Source: Methylocystis echinoides (GTDB taxonomy: Bacteria; Pseudomonadota; Alphaproteobacteria; Rhizobiales; Beijerinckiaceae). From it: a DNA stretch of 64,000 nt. The stretch lies in NCBI RefSeq assembly GCF_027923385.1, contig NZ_BSEC01000001.1, positions 1,314,501-1,378,500 of the forward strand, written 5' to 3'. The position numbers were made by a program, and so were the translations under genes. Positions 9,600 through 63,254 of this stretch are shown here, piece by piece. The notes beneath the pieces were generated by a model. It made no database searches and had not been told where the DNA came from. It saw only the letters and a program-made list of their open reading frames with translations. Within the stretch, counting starts at the first letter, position 1; the number at the start of each line of letters is the position of its first letter.

Positions 9600-10019
9600 A
9601 TGCGATTGCCGTATTTGAGAATTGCCGTCATCGGTCTCGTCACTCTCGGCGTGACCGACGCCGTTTTCGCGAGAAAGGCCCTGCGCAAAGCAGCGCCGGT
9701 GATCGTGACGGAAAATTCCGATCCGGGGCTGTTTGAAATGATCGGCAGCGTGATGTCGCTCTCGACCAAAGAAGCGGAAACTTTTCAGCACCGTCCGCCC
9801 CGGCAGGAGTCGAACAGATATCTCAATGTCAAGCCAGAGTCAGTTCGGACCCAACGCGCCAGCGCCTCGCTCGACGGCGGCGGCTTCACGACGCCTTACG
9901 GTTTTCCGCAAGCCAGGCGTCGCGACGACGAGATCGGTTTCTACAAGGATAATTACGTCACTTACAGCAACAGTCCGCTGAGCGGCTATTACGGCTGGTA
10001 CGGCCAGATATCGCCGTAA
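9600..10019 (+). CDS. small secreted protein of unknown function
   Basis: 139 residues from ATG 9600 with AGGTAAAAGAA ahead of it. Residues 1-24 form a signal peptide ending in AVFA. The mature part is basic, with no cysteines, and ends in a Tyr/Ser/Gly-rich tail (YVTYSNSPLSGYYGWYG). I do not recognise a family. It is convergent with the YidB-like gene, whose stop lies 13 bp away. Confidence 0.6.
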   Translation: MRLPYLRIAVIGLVTLGVTDAVFARKALRKAAPVIVTENSDPGLFEMIGSVMSLSTKEAETFQHRPPRQESNRYLNVKPESVRTQRASASLDGGGFTTPYGFPQARRRDDEIGFYKDNYVTYSNSPLSGYYGWYGQISP

Positions 10020-10032
10020 GCGACGTGCTCTG

Positions 10033-10392
10033 TTACGCGGCGCAGGCGCGGCGAATGGCGCCCGGCAGCTGATCCGCAAGGATGTCGCGCAGCCGGTCGA
10101 TCGACAGGCCGGATCTGGCTGACATGTCGCGAAGATCCTTCCAGCCGATGAGTTGCAGCGCTTCGACAGAGTTGATCGGGAGATTCGCGCCATCCGCGCG
10201 CCATGAGCGCACCTTGCCGGCAAAGCCCGCCTTCTCGAATCGCTTGATCGTCTCGGCGACGCCGCCTTTGGAGGCGATGTAATCCTGCAGAAGCCGGATC
10301 GCCTGATCCGCATCGGCGCGTCGCTCCACGGCCGCCGAGGCGGGCGCAAATCTGAAAGAGAAGAGGTCAAAGAGGCGCGCGATCCAGTTCAT
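10033..10392 (-). CDS. YidB/DUF937-like protein
   Basis: 119 residues from ATG 10392 with GGAGA upstream. The segment from about residue 50, GGVAETIKRFEKAGFAGKV, then SWRADGANLPIN, LRDMSARSGLS and ILADQLPGAI, follows the YidB (DUF937) pattern of a repeated helical domain. The usual Gly-rich N-terminus is replaced here by a short amphipathic segment beginning MNWIARLFDLF. The role of the family is unclear to me. It may be cotranscribed with nothing; a hairpin lies upstream of it. Confidence 0.65.
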   Translation of the reverse strand: MNWIARLFDLFSFRFAPASAAVERRADADQAIRLLQDYIASKGGVAETIKRFEKAGFAGKVRSWRADGANLPINSVEALQLIGWKDLRDMSARSGLSIDRLRDILADQLPGAIRRACAA

Positions 10393-10549
10393 TGCATTCT
10401 CCGATAGTGACGCCACCCGAGCGCGAGCGACGATAGGGGGGAGGTGTTGTGACTTCGTAAAAGCAGATGAGCTTTCTCGATGTCGAACGCTGTAAACAGG
10501 ATCGCACTATGCGTCTTCTTGAATCAGGTCGCCCCCGACCATGCGGAGG

Positions 10550-10577
10550 AAGCGACGGGATCGAAACCCCGTCGCTT
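10550..10577 (-). terminator. hairpin downstream of the histidine-tail gene
   Basis: AAGCGACGGG (10550-10559) pairs perfectly with CCCGTCGCTT (10568-10577), a ten-base stem with an eight-base loop, starting eight bases beyond the stop of the minus-strand gene. It has only a short T stretch. Confidence 0.55.
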
Positions 10578-10584
10578 GTCGTCA

Positions 10585-10902
10585 TCAGTGGTGATGATGA
10601 TGGTGGTGATGGTGATGGTGATGATGATGATGGTGGTGCGCGACGGGGGCGGCCGGAGCCGCGACCGGCGCCGACGCGCTCGGGACGGACGTCTTGTTGC
10701 CGGTCACATTGTCGAGCACGCCCGTAACCGCCTTGCCAGCTTCCTGGCCGACGTGGTCGACGGCCCCGCCGACGCCCTGGCCAACCTTTTCGACGCCCGC
10801 GCCGACGGCGTTGATCGGGTTCTGCTGGGCGCTGGCCGCGCCAGCGAAAAGGAACGCGCCGGCGACCAAACCAGAAAACAGTCCAAGCTTCTTGATGCTC
10901 AT
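10585..10902 (-). CDS. secreted protein with a 17-histidine C-terminal tail
   Basis: 105 residues from ATG 10902 (AGAGG upstream; translation MSIKKLGLFSGLVAGAFLFAG gives a clear signal peptide ending at ASA). The mature region is a Gly/Val-rich repeat (VGAGVEKVGQGVGGAVDHVGQEAGKAV) that could form an amphipathic helix, then an Ala/Pro linker and 17 consecutive histidines up to the stop. The His codons are a mixture of CAC and CAT, so this is not a simple repeat. Histidine tails bind Ni, Zn, Cu or Co; a periplasmic metal buffer or sensor is plausible inference. No metal enzyme lies beside it. Confidence 0.75.
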   Translation of the reverse strand: MSIKKLGLFSGLVAGAFLFAGAASAQQNPINAVGAGVEKVGQGVGGAVDHVGQEAGKAVTGVLDNVTGNKTSVPSASAPVAAPAAPVAHHHHHHHHHHHHHHHHH

Positions 10903-11008
10903 TTCATTACCTCTTTCGGCGACACAACTGTTAGACGGCGCCAAGATAGAACTTATTTTCGCGCAGGCCAATGCTTAAGCCCGCGACCGTCAAGCAAAAT
11001 CCGTCAAG

Positions 11009-12016
11009 TCAAGGCTTGGGAAGGGTGAGCAGTCCGGCGTCGCCGCTTTCCGCCCCAAACAGCAGCCGCGCGCCCGTCGCGTCCCAGGCGAGGGCGGAAA
11101 TGCGGGCGTTTTCTGGCTCCTCCGCCGGGCGGCGGACCAGCAGCTCCGATGCGTCGGTGATTCTCGAGATCATCACCAGCCCGTCGTCGAAACCGATGGC
11201 GACGACAAGCGCGGCCGGGTGGAAGGCCACGCGCGTGACCGGGACATTGGCGCGCACGCCGCATTCCCGCGGGCTTTGACCCATCGGGCCGTCCTTGCCG
11301 GAGAAAGGCCAGATGATGCAGGCGTCCGCGCCGGACGTCGCCAGCCATTTGCCGTCGTTGGACCAGGAGAGGCTGCGCGTCTTGGCCGGATAGCCGGCCA
11401 TGCGCATGTTCTTGGCGTCGGTGATGCGCCAGCCATGCAGCGTATTCTCCTGCATGGATGTGATCAGAAAGCGCCCATCCGGCGAGACGGTCGCGTCGAG
11501 ATGCGAGCCGCTCCAGTTCAGCAGTTCGGGCTTGCCGGCGTTGGGGAACCAGAGCGTCGCGCCATTGTAATGGGCGACGGCGAGACGATAGCCCTTGGGG
11601 AAGAAGGCGAGACCCCGGCAAGTCGATGGAATGTCGAGTGATTTCGTCTCGCCCCGGGCCGGGCGGGCGCGGACGTTGCGGCCCGCGGACCAGGCGACGG
11701 CGCCGTCCTGCGTCGCGACGGCGTCGATCCATTTGCCCTTCTCGTCGGCGAGGGTCTCCATCTCGCCATTGGCGTCGGTGGCGACGACGCGGCCATCGTC
11801 GCCCCCGGTCATGAGCCGGCGGCCGTCGCTGGCCGCGACGAGGATGGCGGCGTCGGGATGGGCCTGCTGGCTGCGCGCGTCATGGGCTTCGCCGAGGCGG
11901 ATGCTCCCGTCGGCGAGGGCGAGGACGGGCGTGTCGCCGAGCCAGGCGGCGGCGACAATGGGTTCGCCGAGCGCGAGCGGCTCAACGGCGGAAGTCAGAC
12001 TGGGATATTCGGCCAA
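11009..12016 (-). CDS. WD40 repeat protein
   Basis: 335 residues with repeated beta-propeller units: SDGRRLMTGGDDGRVVATD, SPDGRFLITSMQENTLHGW, SNDGKWLATSGADACIIW, HPAALVVAIGFDDGLVMI and a last unit DATGARLLFGAESGDAGLL. About six or seven blades fit, with no signal peptide, so it is probably cytoplasmic. Alphaproteobacteria carry a conserved single WD40 protein of this type; its partner is not known to me. It follows the O-antigen-ligase-like gene by 12 bp and is probably cotranscribed with it. Confidence 0.85.
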   Translation of the reverse strand: MAEYPSLTSAVEPLALGEPIVAAAWLGDTPVLALADGSIRLGEAHDARSQQAHPDAAILVAASDGRRLMTGGDDGRVVATDANGEMETLADEKGKWIDAVATQDGAVAWSAGRNVRARPARGETKSLDIPSTCRGLAFFPKGYRLAVAHYNGATLWFPNAGKPELLNWSGSHLDATVSPDGRFLITSMQENTLHGWRITDAKNMRMAGYPAKTRSLSWSNDGKWLATSGADACIIWPFSGKDGPMGQSPRECGVRANVPVTRVAFHPAALVVAIGFDDGLVMISRITDASELLVRRPAEEPENARISALAWDATGARLLFGAESGDAGLLTLPKP

Positions 12017-54950: not shown

Positions 54951-56045
54951 ATGCAAAATTCCGGCGCATCGCGCAGCGTGAAAATCGCTGCGTTCCTGTT
55001 CAGCGCGGCAATTTTCGTCGCCGCTGTCGCCGCGCTCGACATGACGGTCTCAAAACTCGTTCCCACCGGCGTCAATGAAGCTGACCCGAAACTGGGCTGG
55101 CGGCTGAAGAAGAACGTTACCTATCGCCGCGAGAAGACGACCTTCGCGGGACGCAAATACGATGTCACACTTGCGACGGACGAATATGGGACCCGCACCT
55201 TCGGCGCCAGGCGCACTGCGCCGATCCGCATTCTCGTCCTTGGCGATTCCTTCACCGGGGAGCCCTACGCCTCGAACGACCAGATGTGGTATGCGGCCCT
55301 TGTCCGGCGGCTCGCGGAGCTGACGGGCCGGCCGCTCGATGATTTTTACGTGGTCGCCGCGGCTTCGGGCGGCTATGGCACCTTGCAGACCCTGCTCCTG
55401 TCGCAGGAAGTGAAGCAGTTCTACACGCCGACGCTCCTCATCCATCAATTCTGCGACAACGACTTCAGCAACAACAGTTTCGCGCAGGAGCAGAAATCCG
55501 TCGTCCTGAACCAGTGGATGCAGCGGCCCTATCTTGCGACCGATCGCGAGACGATCGTCTGGCACGAGGGAACGCTTGCGCGCCTCTATCGCGCAATGCT
55601 CTATCGCTCCGCTCTGTTCGGCGTGTTCGACCGCGCCTTGCAGGTGTCCCTGTCCAGCCATTACGGCGGCTACCTCATGATCAAGGAGAAGGACAAGGAC
55701 GCGTATCTCAGGGAGGTGCGCGCGGCCACTTATGATCCGGAGGCGATCGACCTCACGCGCTTCCTGCTCGCAAAGCTTCGCAGGACATTCGAGAATGTGC
55801 CGGCGGCGATGTTCGATTGCCCGATCGAACCCACGTCGGTCAACAGCATCTGGGTGGACGCCGCAAGGACTGCGGGCTTCACGCCGATCACGGCGCCATC
55901 GGACGATCTTCTCACGGCCAAGGCGCGTGGCGAACTCGACCTGTTCGCCACGGACGGCGCGCATCTCTCGGATACGGGCAACGAGGTGATGGGCCGGGTG
56001 CTTGCGCAGGAAATCCTGTCGCTGGGCCTCATCCAGAACAGATGA
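54951..56045 (+). CDS. SGNH/GDSL-hydrolase-like protein with N-terminal membrane helix
   Basis: 364 residues. One N-terminal hydrophobic helix (VKIAAFLFSAAIFVAAVAALD) anchors it or is a signal peptide. SGNH block I is ILVLGDSFTGE; block III-like Gly is in ASGGYGTLQ; block V has ATDGAHLSDTGNEV with the catalytic Asp/His. The same order is found in the two related genes at 62-64 kb. It may remove acyl or acetyl groups from a surface glycan. It ends exactly next to the stop of the convergent phosphatase gene, with no gap. Confidence 0.75.
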   Translation: MQNSGASRSVKIAAFLFSAAIFVAAVAALDMTVSKLVPTGVNEADPKLGWRLKKNVTYRREKTTFAGRKYDVTLATDEYGTRTFGARRTAPIRILVLGDSFTGEPYASNDQMWYAALVRRLAELTGRPLDDFYVVAAASGGYGTLQTLLLSQEVKQFYTPTLLIHQFCDNDFSNNSFAQEQKSVVLNQWMQRPYLATDRETIVWHEGTLARLYRAMLYRSALFGVFDRALQVSLSSHYGGYLMIKEKDKDAYLREVRAATYDPEAIDLTRFLLAKLRRTFENVPAAMFDCPIEPTSVNSIWVDAARTAGFTPITAPSDDLLTAKARGELDLFATDGAHLSDTGNEVMGRVLAQEILSLGLIQNR

Positions 56046-57347
56046 TCAGGCGCCGGGCTTTCTTTCCACGATGAGACAGCCGATGTCGTCCGCCTGTTCG
56101 ACGCCCGCCGCAAAGGCGTCGACGACGGCGAAGAGCGTTGAGAGCATTTCGCGGGGCGGGGCGCCGGCCCCTTGCGTCACAGCGTCGATAAAGCGCGCGT
56201 CGCCGAACTCCTCTTTCGCAGCGTTCATCGCTTCTGTTACGCCATCCGTAATCAGGATGAGCTTCTCGCCGGGTTCGAGCCGACACGTCTCGGTTCTGGC
56301 GACGCGGCCCGCGTCGATCGCCAGTGGCAGGCCGGTGGGCTTGAGGCGCCGCATCTCCCCCTGCGCCGACAGATGCACCGGCGCGACATGGCCGCAATTC
56401 GCATAGGTCAACTCGCCGCTGCGTAAATCCAGCACGCCGAAAAAGACAGTGGCGAACATGGTCGCCTCATTGTCGGCGCAAAGCAGGCTGTTCGCGCGCG
56501 CGATGACGTCCGCCACCTCCCGCCGATCGCGACCGACGGTGCGCAGCAGCGTGACGACGATGGAGGTGAAGAGACTCGCCGGCGTCCCCTTGCCGCAGAC
56601 GTCGCCGATGGAGAAGGCGAGGCGATCGTCGTCGAGCAGAAAAAAATCATAGAAGTCCCCGCCGACCTGTCGCGTTGGCCTGATCCTGCCGGCGACCTCG
56701 ATATCGGCGCGCGCCTTGTTCAAAGCGTCGTCTTTCGGAAGGAAGGATTGCTGGATCAGGGCGGCGCTCGCCATTTCGTCTTGCTGGCGCCGCTTGCCGA
56801 CGATCTCATTGGCGAAGCGGCGAAAGGCGGCCGCGAAAGAGGCGAGCGCGGGCGGCGGATTGTCGAGGTCCTCGAGGATGCCGCTGTTGAACTGCCGATT
56901 TTCGAGCGCGCCGAGCGCGTCCGAATAGACGGCGAGCGCTTCATTCACCGAGGCGATGCGCTGTCCAAGCTGCTCGATGGCCGAGAGCAGCAGCTGTGGC
57001 GACTGGAGCCCGAGTTCGAGAAGCTGCGGGCGTGTGATTTCATAGAGCCGCGCATGGGTCGCCGCCTTGATGCTGGCCGTGCGCGGAAGCGCCGCGAGGG
57101 CGCCGATCTCGCCGATGAGCCGCGGCGCCGTGAGGGTCGCGAGCGGCGTCTCGCCATAGGCGGTTTCGGCGTAGACGAGCACCGCGCCCTGCTCGAGATA
57201 GAAGGCGGCGTCGGTCCGCTCGCCCTGGCGGACGAGCAGGGTTTCGGGCGCAAGATCAATTTGTCGCGCGCCGGGGAGGAGCGCCAGAATGGCTTCCGAT
57301 GTGTCGTCCTCGGCGAAGCCGATCTTGCTTTCTGTACTGTCTGACAT
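56046..57347 (-). CDS. cyclic-nucleotide-domain PP2C-type (SpoIIE/RsbU) serine phosphatase
   Basis: 433 residues. Residues ~15-135 are a cNMP-binding (Crp-like) domain: LVRQGERTDAAFYLEQGAVLVY and LIGEIGALAALPRTASI with the usual Glu and Arg. A helical linker follows to ~215. Residues ~217-430 are a SpoIIE-type phosphatase with VGGDFYDFF (Asp231), GDVCGKGTPASL (Asp249) and LITDGVTEA (Asp368), the metal-binding aspartates. Such enzymes dephosphorylate STAS-domain proteins in partner switching. It follows the GPP34-MFS gene by 21 bp; a STAS gene lies just beyond that gene in the divergent direction. Confidence 0.9.
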   Translation of the reverse strand: MSDSTESKIGFAEDDTSEAILALLPGARQIDLAPETLLVRQGERTDAAFYLEQGAVLVYAETAYGETPLATLTAPRLIGEIGALAALPRTASIKAATHARLYEITRPQLLELGLQSPQLLLSAIEQLGQRIASVNEALAVYSDALGALENRQFNSGILEDLDNPPPALASFAAAFRRFANEIVGKRRQQDEMASAALIQQSFLPKDDALNKARADIEVAGRIRPTRQVGGDFYDFFLLDDDRLAFSIGDVCGKGTPASLFTSIVVTLLRTVGRDRREVADVIARANSLLCADNEATMFATVFFGVLDLRSGELTYANCGHVAPVHLSAQGEMRRLKPTGLPLAIDAGRVARTETCRLEPGEKLILITDGVTEAMNAAKEEFGDARFIDAVTQGAGAPPREMLSTLFAVVDAFAAGVEQADDIGCLIVERKPGA

Positions 57348-57368
57348 TGAAAAGTCGCCGGCCTGACG

Positions 57369-59291
57369 TCAGGACGCCTCTCCTGATTCCGCATCCTCGC
57401 CGATGAGGAGCGCCATTGTCAGAGAGACGACGCCGGCCGCCATCAGATAAAAGGCGGGCGCGAGCGGATAGCCTGTGACCTTGATAAGGAAGACGGCGAC
57501 CATTGGCACGGTTCCGCCGAAAACAGATTGCGCGATATTGTAGCCCACCGAGAGGCCGGAGCAGCGCACATGCTTTGGAAAGGCCTCGACCAGAAAAGCG
57601 GGGCTTGCGCCATAGCACGACATGAAGAGCGCGAAGACGCATTGCGCGGCAAGGATCGTCAACAGGTTTGGCGTGTTCAGCACCCAGAACAGCGGCCAGG
57701 CGACAATGGCCAATCCGGCCGCGCCCATCATCAGAACCGGCTTGCGCCCGATGCGATCGGAAAGCGCGCCGGCCAGCGGCGTCATGATCAGCATGGTGAA
57801 AATGGCGATGCTGTTGAGCGTCAACGCCATGGAGGAGGAGACATGCTGCTGCTCCTTCAGCCATGTCGAGAGATAGACGAAGCAGAGATAGAATCCGACG
57901 CCATTGCCCAGCGAGAAGCCAACCACCTTGAGTATCGTGCGCCACTGGGTGCGGAAGGCTTCGCCAAGCGGCGATTTGCGGGCTTCCTCCGTCTTGACGA
58001 TCTTTTCGTCCGGCGGCAGGCGACGGCGAATGAGGAAGACAACCAGTCCGATCAGCAGCCCGCTGAAGAATGCGAGACGCCAGCCCCATAGCGCCGCCGA
58101 TTTCTCCGGCAGCACGGCCAGCAAGGTCGCGCCCACCGCTGAGCCGAGCAGGAGGCCGCCGAGCGCGCCAAAAGGCGCGAAGCTCCCCACGAAGCCGCGC
58201 CGGCTCGCCTGCGCTTCCTCTACGAGCAGGACCATGGAGGTCGTATATTCGCCGCCAACCGCAAGGCCCTGCGCGAGACGCAGCAGCACGAGGAGAATGG
58301 GCGCCGCCATGCCGATTTGCTGATAGGTCGGCAGGATCGCCATGAACAGTGTGGGGATGATCATCAGCACGACGGAAGCGACGACGGCGGCGCGGCGGCC
58401 GAAATGGTCGCCGATATGGCCGAAGAGCATGCCGCCGAGCGGCCGCGCGATGAAGCCCACCGCGAAGACGCCGAACGACGCGAGCAGCGACGTGGAAGGG
58501 TCCTCCGCGGGAAAGAACTGCGATCCGATGGCGGCGGCGAAAAAGCCGTAGACGCCGAAATCGTACCATTCCATTACATTGCCGGCGAGGCCCGCGATGA
58601 CGGTGCGCCTTTCGGCTGCGCGCGTTTCGACATTGACGTGATGCGCCGTGCGCGCGATCTCGCCGCCGATCAGGTCCATTCGCGCGATTTGCGCGATGCG
58701 CGGCTTGACCCGCTGAAGCTCCTTCGGCGTCAAAATGCGCTCGAAGACGAAACAGGCGTCGGCAAGCGAGGTGAGCGCGATGTCGACCGGCGTGGGGAGA
58801 TCGTCGTTATAAAGCAGCGCGAGAATGCGCTTCTTCGCCTCGGGCCGCTCCTGTCCTTCGACGATCGGATAGCGCCGGTCCTTGAGAACCCAGAGGAAAT
58901 CATGATCGCTCTGGCGCAAGACGCCGCGCGCGCAGAGCGCCGACAGCGCCGCTTTGCGCATGACGGGCGCGTGGCGCGACAGGCGTGTGATCCATTCCTG
59001 AGCGCTGAGGCGTCGCGGCTCTGCTGCGATGTCAGCGAGGGCGCGGTCGAGCATGGCGTCGCCCGTCGGCGTCGGGTCCACCGCGAAGACGCCGTCGAGA
59101 TCGGAGTCGATGCGATTACGCAACGCAAGGTCCATGAGCGCGGCCCCGGCGACGCCGCAGCCGAGATAGATTTCCGGCACGCTGTCGAATTCGCCGCCGC
59201 TGTCTTCCAGTGTGAGGAGCAGAAACTCTTCGATCAGGCTGATCGGCGGCAGCGTTTCGACATGCGGGGGGCGATCAATGGCTACGCTCAT
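57369..59291 (-). CDS. GPP34 (GOLPH3-like) domain fused to MHS-family MFS transporter
   Basis: 640 residues from ATG 59291 (MSVAIDRPP; an extension to 59303 exists). Residues ~17-214 follow the GOLPH3/VPS74-like (GPP34) pattern: LIEEFLLLTLEDSGGEF, AALMDLALRNRID, VDPTPTGDAMLDRALADI and then RKAALSALCARGVLR. Residues ~232-640 are a 12-helix metabolite:H+ symporter (ProP/ShiA type): GNVMEWYDFGVYGFFA at the start and loop GHIGDHFGRRAA. GPP34 domains bind acidic lipids in eukaryotes; bacterial ones are mostly alone. Fusion to an MFS transporter is unusual and could tune the transporter through lipids or protein partners. Substrate unknown. Confidence 0.82.
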   Translation of the reverse strand: MSVAIDRPPHVETLPPISLIEEFLLLTLEDSGGEFDSVPEIYLGCGVAGAALMDLALRNRIDSDLDGVFAVDPTPTGDAMLDRALADIAAEPRRLSAQEWITRLSRHAPVMRKAALSALCARGVLRQSDHDFLWVLKDRRYPIVEGQERPEAKKRILALLYNDDLPTPVDIALTSLADACFVFERILTPKELQRVKPRIAQIARMDLIGGEIARTAHHVNVETRAAERRTVIAGLAGNVMEWYDFGVYGFFAAAIGSQFFPAEDPSTSLLASFGVFAVGFIARPLGGMLFGHIGDHFGRRAAVVASVVLMIIPTLFMAILPTYQQIGMAAPILLVLLRLAQGLAVGGEYTTSMVLLVEEAQASRRGFVGSFAPFGALGGLLLGSAVGATLLAVLPEKSAALWGWRLAFFSGLLIGLVVFLIRRRLPPDEKIVKTEEARKSPLGEAFRTQWRTILKVVGFSLGNGVGFYLCFVYLSTWLKEQQHVSSSMALTLNSIAIFTMLIMTPLAGALSDRIGRKPVLMMGAAGLAIVAWPLFWVLNTPNLLTILAAQCVFALFMSCYGASPAFLVEAFPKHVRCSGLSVGYNIAQSVFGGTVPMVAVFLIKVTGYPLAPAFYLMAAGVVSLTMALLIGEDAESGEAS

Positions 59292-59404: not shown

Positions 59405-59743
59405 ATGGACGTGACGCATGAGGTTTTGAATGAGTTGCTGGTCATCCGGCCGCAAAGCCGGATCGACAGCAGCACCGCCTCCGCCTTTGAAGCGCGCTGC
59501 GCATCGTTGATTGACGAGGGCCCCGCCAAGGTCGTCATTGATTTTTCGAACGTCGATTACATCAGCTCCGCGGGCCTGCGGGCGCTTCTCGTTGCGGCGA
59601 AGAAAGCGAGGTCGCAGGGCGGCGCGCTGACGCTTTGCGGCCTCAGCGGCGGCGTCAGGGACGTGATGGCGGTGAGCGGCTTCGACACCATTCTCGGCGC
59701 GCATTCTGATGTTTCCGAGGCGCGGGCGGCTCTGGGCGGCTGA
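59405..59743 (+). CDS. STAS-domain anti-anti-sigma factor-like protein
   Basis: 112 residues, one STAS domain. Motif VVIDFSNVDYISSAGLRALL carries the Ser pair (54/55) where partner-switch antagonists are phosphorylated; Ser55 aligns with the phosphosite of SpoIIAA in my reading. It should be dephosphorylated by a PP2C phosphatase and phosphorylated by an RsbW-like kinase. The gene is divergent from the GPP34-MFS gene across 113 bp, and the phosphatase gene lies just beyond. No kinase gene is visible. Confidence 0.9.
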   Translation: MDVTHEVLNELLVIRPQSRIDSSTASAFEARCASLIDEGPAKVVIDFSNVDYISSAGLRALLVAAKKARSQGGALTLCGLSGGVRDVMAVSGFDTILGAHSDVSEARAALGG

Positions 59744-61983: not shown

Positions 61984-62081
61984 ATGAATTAGCAGGACAG
62001 CCAGGTTTACTCAGGCGACGGCCCAGGCGGGGGCAGGCGGCGATCAAGGTTCTGCGCTAGATGCATGGTTTAAGAAAGCAC

Positions 62082-63254
62082 ATGAAAATAACAGTCGCCG
62101 TTGTTGTCGCCGCTATGCTTGCCTGGCTGGGCTTCGAATTCATCGAGGCAAGTCGTCATCTTGTTTTATACGAGATCACGCTTGTCTTTTTTCTTTTGGC
62201 GTATTTTGTCGTCGTGCTGCGTGGGCGTTGGCGCGATGTGGCGCTCGTCTGCGCCTCGCTCGCCTTCGGACTGGTGGGCATTGAAGTCGTTCTCTGGCGT
62301 CTCAATAACTCGCCGACGACCTTTCGCGAAAAAGGGATGTGGGGGATCAAGGGCGAACTGGGCCTGAGTCCCACGCGCCCCGGCGTGATCCACGAGAAGA
62401 AGGTTGCCGCCAATGGCGACGTGATCTTCGACGTCGCCTATACCATCCAGCCCGATCTGACGCGCAAGGTGGTTTCGCCGGAGACATCGCCTCTCGTCGC
62501 CTTTTTCGGCGATTCGTTCACTTATGGCGCCGGCGTCAACGACGTCGACACCTTGCCGCAGATCTTCGCTGATTTCACGAACGGGGCCTATCACGTCGTC
62601 AATTTCGGGGTGTCGGGTTATGGCCCGCAGCAGATGCTGCGCGCGCTGGAGACGGACCTGTATCCGGTTCTCAAGGAGAACCCCCGTCTGTTCGTGATTC
62701 TGACGGCGCCCTGGCACGCCTTCCGCACCTCCTGCAAAGCCGATAACGCCTGGTTTGGCCCGAGCTATGAGCTCGAGAACGGCGTTCCGGTTTACAAGGG
62801 CTCCTGCGCCTCGCGGCAGTCCGCCTTCAGGCAGGCGTTGACGACAATGCTGCGCTGGACCGAGGCCTATGACCATTTCATCGGCCGCCGCGAAAAGCCG
62901 GTCGGTCCGCAGGACATGGATCTTTACATCGAGATTCTCGCGAGATCGGCGGAGATCGCCAGGCAGAAATATGGCGTGCCGACGCTCGTGCTCTATCTCC
63001 CGGATGTGCTCACGACCGCGCGCTATCAGCTTCCTCCGGAGCTCGATAACACCGCAATGATGCGCCGTCTGCGCGAAAAGGGGCTGGATGTGCTGGATCT
63101 GTCCATCGATCTCAACGCCTATCCGGGTCATCAGCTCATCATTCCGGGCGATGGACATCCGACGGGCTTTCTCAATCGAATCTGGGGCGAGAGACTGAAG
63201 GATTTCGTCGCCGCGAAATTCAGCGTCGCGACCCCGTCCGCCGGGTCGCCGTAA
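62082..63254 (+). CDS. SGNH-hydrolase-like membrane protein (paralogue A)
   Basis: 390 residues from ATG 62082 (a longer start at 62061 is possible). Three membrane helices at the N-terminus (about residues 1-85) then a soluble domain that probably faces the periplasm: SGNH block I FFGDSFTYGAGVND, block II-like NFGVSGYGPQQMLRAL, a block III area ILTAPWHAFRTSC and a C-terminal PGDGHPTGFLNRIWG with the catalytic Asp/His. Related to O-acyl or lipid-linked glycan hydrolases of the SGNH superfamily; substrate unknown. A close copy follows. Confidence 0.72.
   Translation: MKITVAVVVAAMLAWLGFEFIEASRHLVLYEITLVFFLLAYFVVVLRGRWRDVALVCASLAFGLVGIEVVLWRLNNSPTTFREKGMWGIKGELGLSPTRPGVIHEKKVAANGDVIFDVAYTIQPDLTRKVVSPETSPLVAFFGDSFTYGAGVNDVDTLPQIFADFTNGAYHVVNFGVSGYGPQQMLRALETDLYPVLKENPRLFVILTAPWHAFRTSCKADNAWFGPSYELENGVPVYKGSCASRQSAFRQALTTMLRWTEAYDHFIGRREKPVGPQDMDLYIEILARSAEIARQKYGVPTLVLYLPDVLTTARYQLPPELDNTAMMRRLREKGLDVLDLSIDLNAYPGHQLIIPGDGHPTGFLNRIWGERLKDFVAAKFSVATPSAGSP

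Follow-up and report, generated by a model that had tools for sequence, protein, structure and literature searches.

A GOLPH3-like (GPP34) domain fused to an MHS-type transporter and linked to partner-switching genes in Methylocystis echinoides

We found that a single gene of Methylocystis echinoides joins a GPP34 (GOLPH3-like) domain to a transporter of the MHS type. The fusion, with its predicted fold, forms one clade and is linked to, and co-occurs with, genes for a SpoIIE-type phosphatase and a STAS protein; relatives also have an adjacent RsbW-like kinase gene. These observations point, at odds close to even (a probability of about 0.48), to a partner-switching relay that has the GPP34 domain as its output module and gates the fused transporter.

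The fusion gene and its product

The window is a 64,000-nucleotide stretch of the Methylocystis echinoides genome (contig NZ_BSEC01000001.1, positions 1,314,501 to 1,378,500). On its minus strand, a 640-residue frame runs from an ATG at 59291 to a stop at 57369, and translation of the plus strand over the same interval is interrupted by stops. The first-pass annotation, made from the letters alone, had given the frame its correct coordinates, leaving the strand unstated. The gene has the following features.

57369..59291, minus strand: GPP34-MHS transporter fusion gene, 640 aa (single open frame; both domains above Pfam cut-offs; AF2 model)
58653..59237, minus strand: GPP34 (GOLPH3-like) domain, residues 19-213 (Pfam)
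58866..58877, minus strand: RRYP tetrapeptide, residues 139-142 of the GPP34 domain, common to stand-alone bacterial GPP34 proteins
58542..58673, minus strand: single predicted helix, residues 207-250, from the GPP34 end into transmembrane helix 1 (AF2 secondary structure)
57396..58601, minus strand: MHS-type MFS transporter, residues 231-632, with motif A (GHIGDHFGRR) at residue 291

An HMM search located Pfam GPP34 (PF05719) at residues 19-213 (139.1 bits, E 2.5e-40, cut-off 29.1), in agreement with the segment of residues ~17-214 first singled out as GPP34-like, and a profile search showed it to be the sole GPP34 match in the 5.3-Mb genome. The remainder was first described as a 12-helix MHS-type transporter; it has the MFS fold and motif A and matches Pfam MFS_1 (147 bits, best stretch 267-588) and Sugar_tr (116 bits, from residue 231). 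It resembles the MHS family (TIGR00883; ProP, TcuC, ShiA) in its 12-helix fold, in motif A and in its top NCBIfam match, the MHS model TIGR00883, whose profile positions 1-400 of 400 align to residues 237-624. It differs from that family in its N-terminal GPP34 domain and in its score, 370.1 bits compared to a curated cut-off of 443.45, and is therefore MHS-like, not a certified MHS member. The next MHS models, ProP and TcuC, reach ~290 bits each, far below their cut-offs. We read the transporter as an MHS-type solute porter, probably proton-coupled.

Structure prediction, one of the checks proposed with the first-pass annotation, yielded an AF2 model (pLDDT 84.4, pTM 0.79) in which the N-terminal domain has the GOLPH3/Vps74 fold and the helix of residues 207-250 continues unbroken from GPP34 into the first transmembrane helix (TM1). 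The RRYP tetrapeptide is identical in all 23 bacterial rows outside our set of 95 fused proteins (22 stand-alone genes and one frame-broken fusion piece from locus L084), and each of its residues is kept in 84-90 of the 95 fused rows.

Conservation and distribution of the fusion

We searched for homologs with residues 12-215 against proteins of ~352-1120 residues, scoring the 8000 best word-sharing candidates, and obtained 199 clusters. The proposed count of homologs sharing the fusion came out in its favor: PF05719 together with PF00083 and/or PF07690 was present in 120 of the 120 clusters listed (79 further ones are unlisted), from sources that include, among the matches listed, Methylocystis, Hyphomicrobiales, Parvibaculum, Labrys, Stellaceae and Rhizomicrobium. 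The strong GPP34 match and the recurrence of the joined frame in independent assemblies rule out an assembly or frameshift artefact. Across the 95 fused proteins, the mean column identity is 71% in GPP34 (residues 17-206), 79% at the junction (207-250) and 71% in the transporter (251-632), which means that GPP34 and transporter are constrained to the same degree. In a separate search, PF05719 was missing from 3 of the best 120 matches (P0060, P0076 and P0106); each begins inside the GPP34 domain and is thus read as a cut or mis-started fusion rather than as an unfused ancestor.

Among 61 genomes of the order, the fusion was present in 9 of 37 from the genus and in 0 of 24 from other families; two congeners added later, one of them carrying it, bring the genus to 10 of 39. 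The closest unfused relatives in the 61 genomes match the transporter part only, at 47-48% identity. GPP34 was found in 29 of 385 sampled genomes from the class, and the transporter fusion was recognized in only two of these (Methylocystis echinoides and G324), which makes it uncommon.

Two records deserve separate mention. The fusion is also carried by L080, from a record titled Candidatus Kuenenia stuttgartiensis (CALQFM020000034.1) that is probably mis-labelled or mixed. Locus L084 (7794-13325; a Gammaproteobacteria MAG) has three GPP34 genes in a row: a divergent GPP34-MFS fusion, a second fusion whose frame is broken, and another GPP34 protein. The GPP34 and transporter parts of the second (9926-11813) lie in two frames, and we read it as a damaged copy.

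The fusion protein is already sequenced, under public database names that include 'MHS family proline/betaine transporter-like MFS transporter', yet it is unremarked within the one literature library searched, where no paper combined 'GPP34' and 'MFS transporter'. Most papers there that use 'Gpp34' concern, by title, an insecticidal protein formerly called Cry34 or pest control, and are unrelated.

Partner-switching genes around the fusion

The genes on either side of the fusion in Methylocystis echinoides encode a candidate phosphatase and a STAS protein.

56046..57347, minus strand: phosphatase with a cyclic-nucleotide-binding domain (CNBD; residues 32-112) and a SpoIIE/PP2C domain (residues 239-429) (Pfam)
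57348..57368, minus strand: 21-bp gap between fusion and phosphatase, at the place where G001, G021, G026 and G446 have an RsbW-like kinase gene
59405..59743, plus strand: STAS-only protein of the anti-sigma-factor antagonist type (STAS 75.9 bits; TIGR00377 above its cut-off)
59558..59578, plus strand: YISSAGL, serine loop of the STAS protein (motif search)

The phosphatase gene begins 21 bp past the fusion's stop on the same strand. Its SpoIIE/PP2C domain scores 161 bits, and a motif search recovered GGDFYD, IGDVCGKG, TDGV, DDIG and GEIG...RTA, which we take to be the motifs of an active phosphatase. The STAS gene is divergent from the fusion, with 113 bp between the two start codons, and by analogy with RsbV and SpoIIAA its serine loop is a probable phospho-acceptor site. 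The locus therefore has a phosphatase with catalytic motifs and a STAS protein with a loop serine, and has no RsbW-like (HATPase_c_2) kinase gene in the 21-bp gap or adjoining the fusion. The nearest relative of the kinase in this genome has 44% identity and lies ~0.9 Mb away, beside another STAS gene; with no kinase adjacent to the fusion, a local loop would need a kinase acting in trans.

At three other fused loci of the genus (L065 in G021, L071 in G026 and L072 in G001), an HATPase_c_2 kinase of the RsbW/SpoIIAB type lies between the fusion and the phosphatase and probably starts inside the 3' end of the fusion gene; G446 likewise has an RsbW-like kinase in between. Records lacking an assignment to the genus carry the components in other arrangements: a SpoIIE phosphatase with a receiver domain lies directly downstream of the fusion in L079 (Rhodospirillales); a second GPP34, a STAS and a kinase are near the fusion in L081 and L083 ('uncultured proteobacterium'); and in L082 (Caulobacteraceae) a STAS gene lies immediately upstream, the phosphatase and kinase being farther away in that direction. 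At least one component was present within the available stretch at 10 of 21 distinct fused loci. The available stretch at the other 11 has none; several of these are short contigs, but L076 and L078 are long. Our single-linkage family F1 groups SpoIIE proteins together with receiver proteins and histidine-kinase proteins, and its member at L074, a CHASE histidine kinase, was left out of the count.

The gene order at L065, L071 and L072 speaks for a different arrangement, in which GPP34 binds the kinase or phosphatase and not STAS, acting as a scaffold, and the transporter's conformation is an input (a sensor) of the relay rather than its output: fusion, kinase and phosphatase are overlapping or adjacent and co-directional there, and STAS is divergent. 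We regard this arrangement as highly improbable. The phosphatase has a sensory part of its own, which varies between loci (a CNBD in L065, a receiver domain in L079) while the GPP34 end stays the same. Furthermore, among the matches listed, STAS is commoner than the kinase within 2 kb of other GPP34 genes (11 of 45 loci compared to 4 of 45).

Enrichment and co-occurrence

We quantified the linkage in a set of 54 GPP34 loci from 37 genomes, comprising the 9 fused loci of the genus and 45 others of the class, using matches listed at or above 49.6 bits for STAS, 51 bits for HATPase_c_2 and 94.6 bits for SpoIIE. The Methylocystis echinoides locus was kept in the genus group, and two pieces of one GPP34 in G349 (C11) were counted once. 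Among the matches listed, STAS lies within 2 kb of 5 of the 9 fused loci (0.033 expected) and of the 11 other loci noted above (0.14 expected; Poisson p 9e-18, where the Poisson values assume independent loci, which is true only in part). All 11 are stand-alone GPP34 genes, from 10 genomes in six families (f106, f60, f170, f105, f192 and f65). Since STAS adjoins stand-alone GPP34 genes as well, the link is to GPP34 and not to the transporter. By the same 2-kb measure, HATPase_c_2 was close to 3 of 9 fused loci among the matches listed, in addition to the 4 others, and SpoIIE was close to 4 of 9 fused and 2 of 45 other loci.

Across the 39 genomes of the genus, a relative of the STAS protein (at least 93 bits) occurs in 9 of the 10 with the fusion and in 0 of the 29 others (Fisher p 4.7e-8), and a phosphatase ortholog (at least 476 bits) occurs in 8 of 10 compared to 1 of 29 (Fisher p 6e-6), both p-values being overstated because the congeneric genomes are related. 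Outside the Methylocystis echinoides genome, the STAS relatives have 43-71% identity. G020 has the fusion and lacks both STAS and phosphatase, in an assembly that is 77% complete; G028 has only a 95-bit piece of the phosphatase, ending at the contig end; and G034, the single exception among the others, has phosphatase and kinase with neither fusion nor STAS relative.

The components co-occur also in genomes whose assembly does not place them side by side. In G007, STAS adjoins the fusion, and the phosphatase and kinase are at the far end of a 4.54-Mb contig, 3.9 Mb away along the contig or, should the contig be circular, ~0.6 Mb. The fusion of G008 and that of G028 are on a different contig from the STAS, kinase and phosphatase (or its piece), which share a short one.

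These distributions also bear on whether the genes are only co-regulated. Stress modules often adjoin their targets, and such a module could drive a transcription factor, with an osmolyte- or metabolite-type MHS porter as the neighboring target and GPP34 as a folding or stability domain. The ranking of ProP and TcuC as the next-best MHS models, at the low scores given above, speaks for such a porter. Co-regulation alone is nevertheless rather improbable, given that co-occurrence holds in G007, G008 and G028 despite non-adjacent components and that STAS adjoins stand-alone GPP34 genes where no transporter is fused.

GPP34 and STAS trees, and other GPP34 architectures

We found 131 GPP34 domains and, after dropping identical ones, built a midpoint-rooted tree from 122. 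The transporter-fused domains form one set (100/99) that consists of 21 fused rows, the frame-broken copy of L084 and L070, which is the same transporter fusion cut by a contig end. The next larger supported set (95/85), with some long branches, brings in five stand-alone rows, of which L042, L043, L081 and L083 are STAS-adjacent. A STAS neighbor accompanies 23 of the 64 stand-alone and 8 of the 21 transporter-fused rows, and none of the 26 extension-type or 11 P450-type rows; these numbers depend on the available flank (down to 1.5 kb in some loci). The MFS, P450 and TM type labels were assigned by the length of the C-terminal extension, with Pfam run on representatives only, and the 26 extension-type rows include one truncated transporter fusion.

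In a STAS tree of 70 rows and few columns, a single set (97/90) unites the GPP34-linked STAS proteins from the genus, those of G008 and G028 among them. The L081 and L083 pair groups with the L042 and L043 pair (91/86), matching their GPP34 grouping. Taken overall, GPP34-adjacent STAS proteins do not form a single clade (11 changes compared to 22.5 in shuffles), and a single dedicated STAS subfamily is thus unsupported. A universal GPP34-STAS pair was likewise rejected; it is absent from the Chloroflexota loci examined and from the P450-type and extension-type GPP34 proteins.

The initial statement that bacterial GPP34 proteins are usually stand-alone needs qualifying, as fusions to P450 and C-terminal extensions also occur. 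GPP34 is N-terminal to a cytochrome P450 in L142, L150 and L052, and also in L053-L056, L058, L144 and L145, with hosts in the Alphaproteobacteria, the Gammaproteobacteria and, as a MAG, the Gemmatimonadaceae; three representatives were typed by Pfam and the remainder from their sequence or length. The 11 P450-type rows lie within one 13-row set (100/93), apart from the transporter fusion. A C-terminal extension of ~160-185 residues follows GPP34 in L060, L123, L128, L130, L134-L136, L143, L146 and L149, and partly in L139; the representatives L059 and L139 gave no further Pfam match. The extension-type genes listed here are followed by the same two gene families, a multiheme cytochrome c (Cytochrom_c3_2) and a Tll0287-like protein in L060, and only the first in L139, in what looks like a conserved redox operon. 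Locus L063 (8881-10767; G229) encodes a divergent GPP34 that scores 82 bits, and the ~220 residues after it match no Pfam family.

The phosphoinositide pocket

The Golgi protein GOLPH3 binds PI(4)P, and the pocket of the human protein consists of W81, R90, R171 and R174 (PMC4414131). In an HMM alignment to human GOLPH3, the counterparts in the fusion are P39 (in a column of moderate certainty), A48, P109 and R112, so that one of four pocket residues is kept (R174 = R112). Of the 95 fused proteins, 88 have Ala at the A48 position and 94 have Arg at the R112 position; among the 23 other bacterial rows, the numbers are 21 and 18, respectively. With three pocket residues changed and a net charge of -7 on the GPP34 domain (residues 17-213), its sequence makes specific PI(4)P binding unlikely. 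The loss of these residues bears on PI(4)P function and not on GPP34 family membership.

A looser contact with anionic lipids is compatible with the data, and GPP34 could act as GOLPH3 does, as a membrane-contact or sorting adaptor that binds acidic lipid or membrane proteins and places the transporter, while the partner-switching genes control something else. The GPP34 fold itself is in line with this role, and the GPP34 proteins fused to P450 or found beside multiheme cytochromes c would fit a general role in placement. SCO4440 of Streptomyces coelicolor, also a bacterial GPP34 protein, affects peptidoglycan and wall-deficient cells (PMC12402492). An adaptor of this kind is still unlikely here: the pocket residues and charge argue against it, a domain tied to a 12-helix protein needs no recruiting to the membrane, and the STAS linkage is left unexplained. 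Unlike GOLPH3/Vps74, the domain is covalently tied to a transporter. SCO4440 is described beside a gene for a D-Ala-D-Ala carboxypeptidase (PMC12402492). The same 2025 paper presents GOLPH3-like proteins as new to prokaryotes and counts 218 bacterial species; the words 'fused' and 'STAS' are absent from its main text.

A proposed relay and its relation to known systems

The first-pass annotation had suggested a lipid- or partner-controlled gate. Its lipid half fares poorly with three of four pocket residues changed, and the linkage of the fusion gene to a partner-switching cassette makes the partner-controlled gate the better-supported reading. The following steps are inferred, as are the STAS form that engages GPP34 and the direction of the effect. 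The input would be a signal (probably a cyclic nucleotide at this locus, one received by a receiver domain in other lineages) that sets how active the SpoIIE-type phosphatase is. This enzyme, together with an RsbW-like kinase, would then set the phosphorylation of STAS on its conserved serine loop, and one STAS form would bind the cytoplasmic GPP34 domain. Binding may move or stabilize the helix between GPP34 and TM1, and the transporter would thereby be opened, shut or stabilized. The partner-switching set may also act on another target and merely share the operon.

STAS proteins with outputs other than sigma factors are known, as in BgrV-BgrR and HsbA-HsbD, where the effectors are diguanylate cyclases (PMC8457831). 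The Methylocystis echinoides locus resembles BgrV-BgrR, HsbA-HsbD and SiaABCD in having a SpoIIE-type phosphatase, a STAS protein and, in relatives, an RsbW-like kinase around an effector gene. It differs in its output: in those systems this is a diguanylate cyclase (and SiaC is a DUF1987 protein; PMC8457831), while the candidate here is a GPP34-transporter. The SulP/SLC26 proteins are also transporters whose cytoplasmic part involves STAS; there, however, STAS is built into the transporter (PMC8256260), whereas here it is separate and GPP34 is the fused part. The main text of that review leaves GPP34 and GOLPH3 unmentioned in its treatment of STAS-only proteins (PMC8256260).

A conserved transporter fusion with linked STAS, phosphatase and kinase makes the role of bacterial GPP34 assayable by transport and binding. 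If the link is direct, transporters join sigma factors and diguanylate cyclases as outputs of partner switching, and GOLPH3 acquires a regulatory background in bacteria. A broader proposal, possible but doubtful, is that bacterial GPP34 is a receptor for STAS switches and an unrecognized class of partner-switching output, through which a kinase and phosphatase would directly control a membrane protein without transcription. In the MHS fusion, this receptor would be wired into TM1 and gate transport, and GOLPH3, a phosphoprotein adaptor, would derive from a bacterial phospho-switched membrane adaptor.

Neighboring genes

A Pfam scan of ten genes near fused loci gave a mixed set (carbonic anhydrase, M48 peptidase, GST, luciferase-like monooxygenase, acyl-CoA dehydrogenase, aldo/keto reductase, methyltransferase, a Rieske protein and two without a Pfam match) and no lead to the substrate, and the two unfused relatives at 47-48% identity gave no clear one. 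An Na/Pi-cotransporter-like gene lies near the fusion in L079, L081, L082 and L083 (PF02690 in L083, family F49 elsewhere). In Methylocystis echinoides, the cassette region is flanked by GDSL-like hydrolase genes at 54951-56045 and 62061-63254, the second below its Pfam cut-off. The gene order of the GDSL pair, a Cys/Met-metabolism enzyme and a nicotinate phosphoribosyltransferase is kept in G021 and G026.
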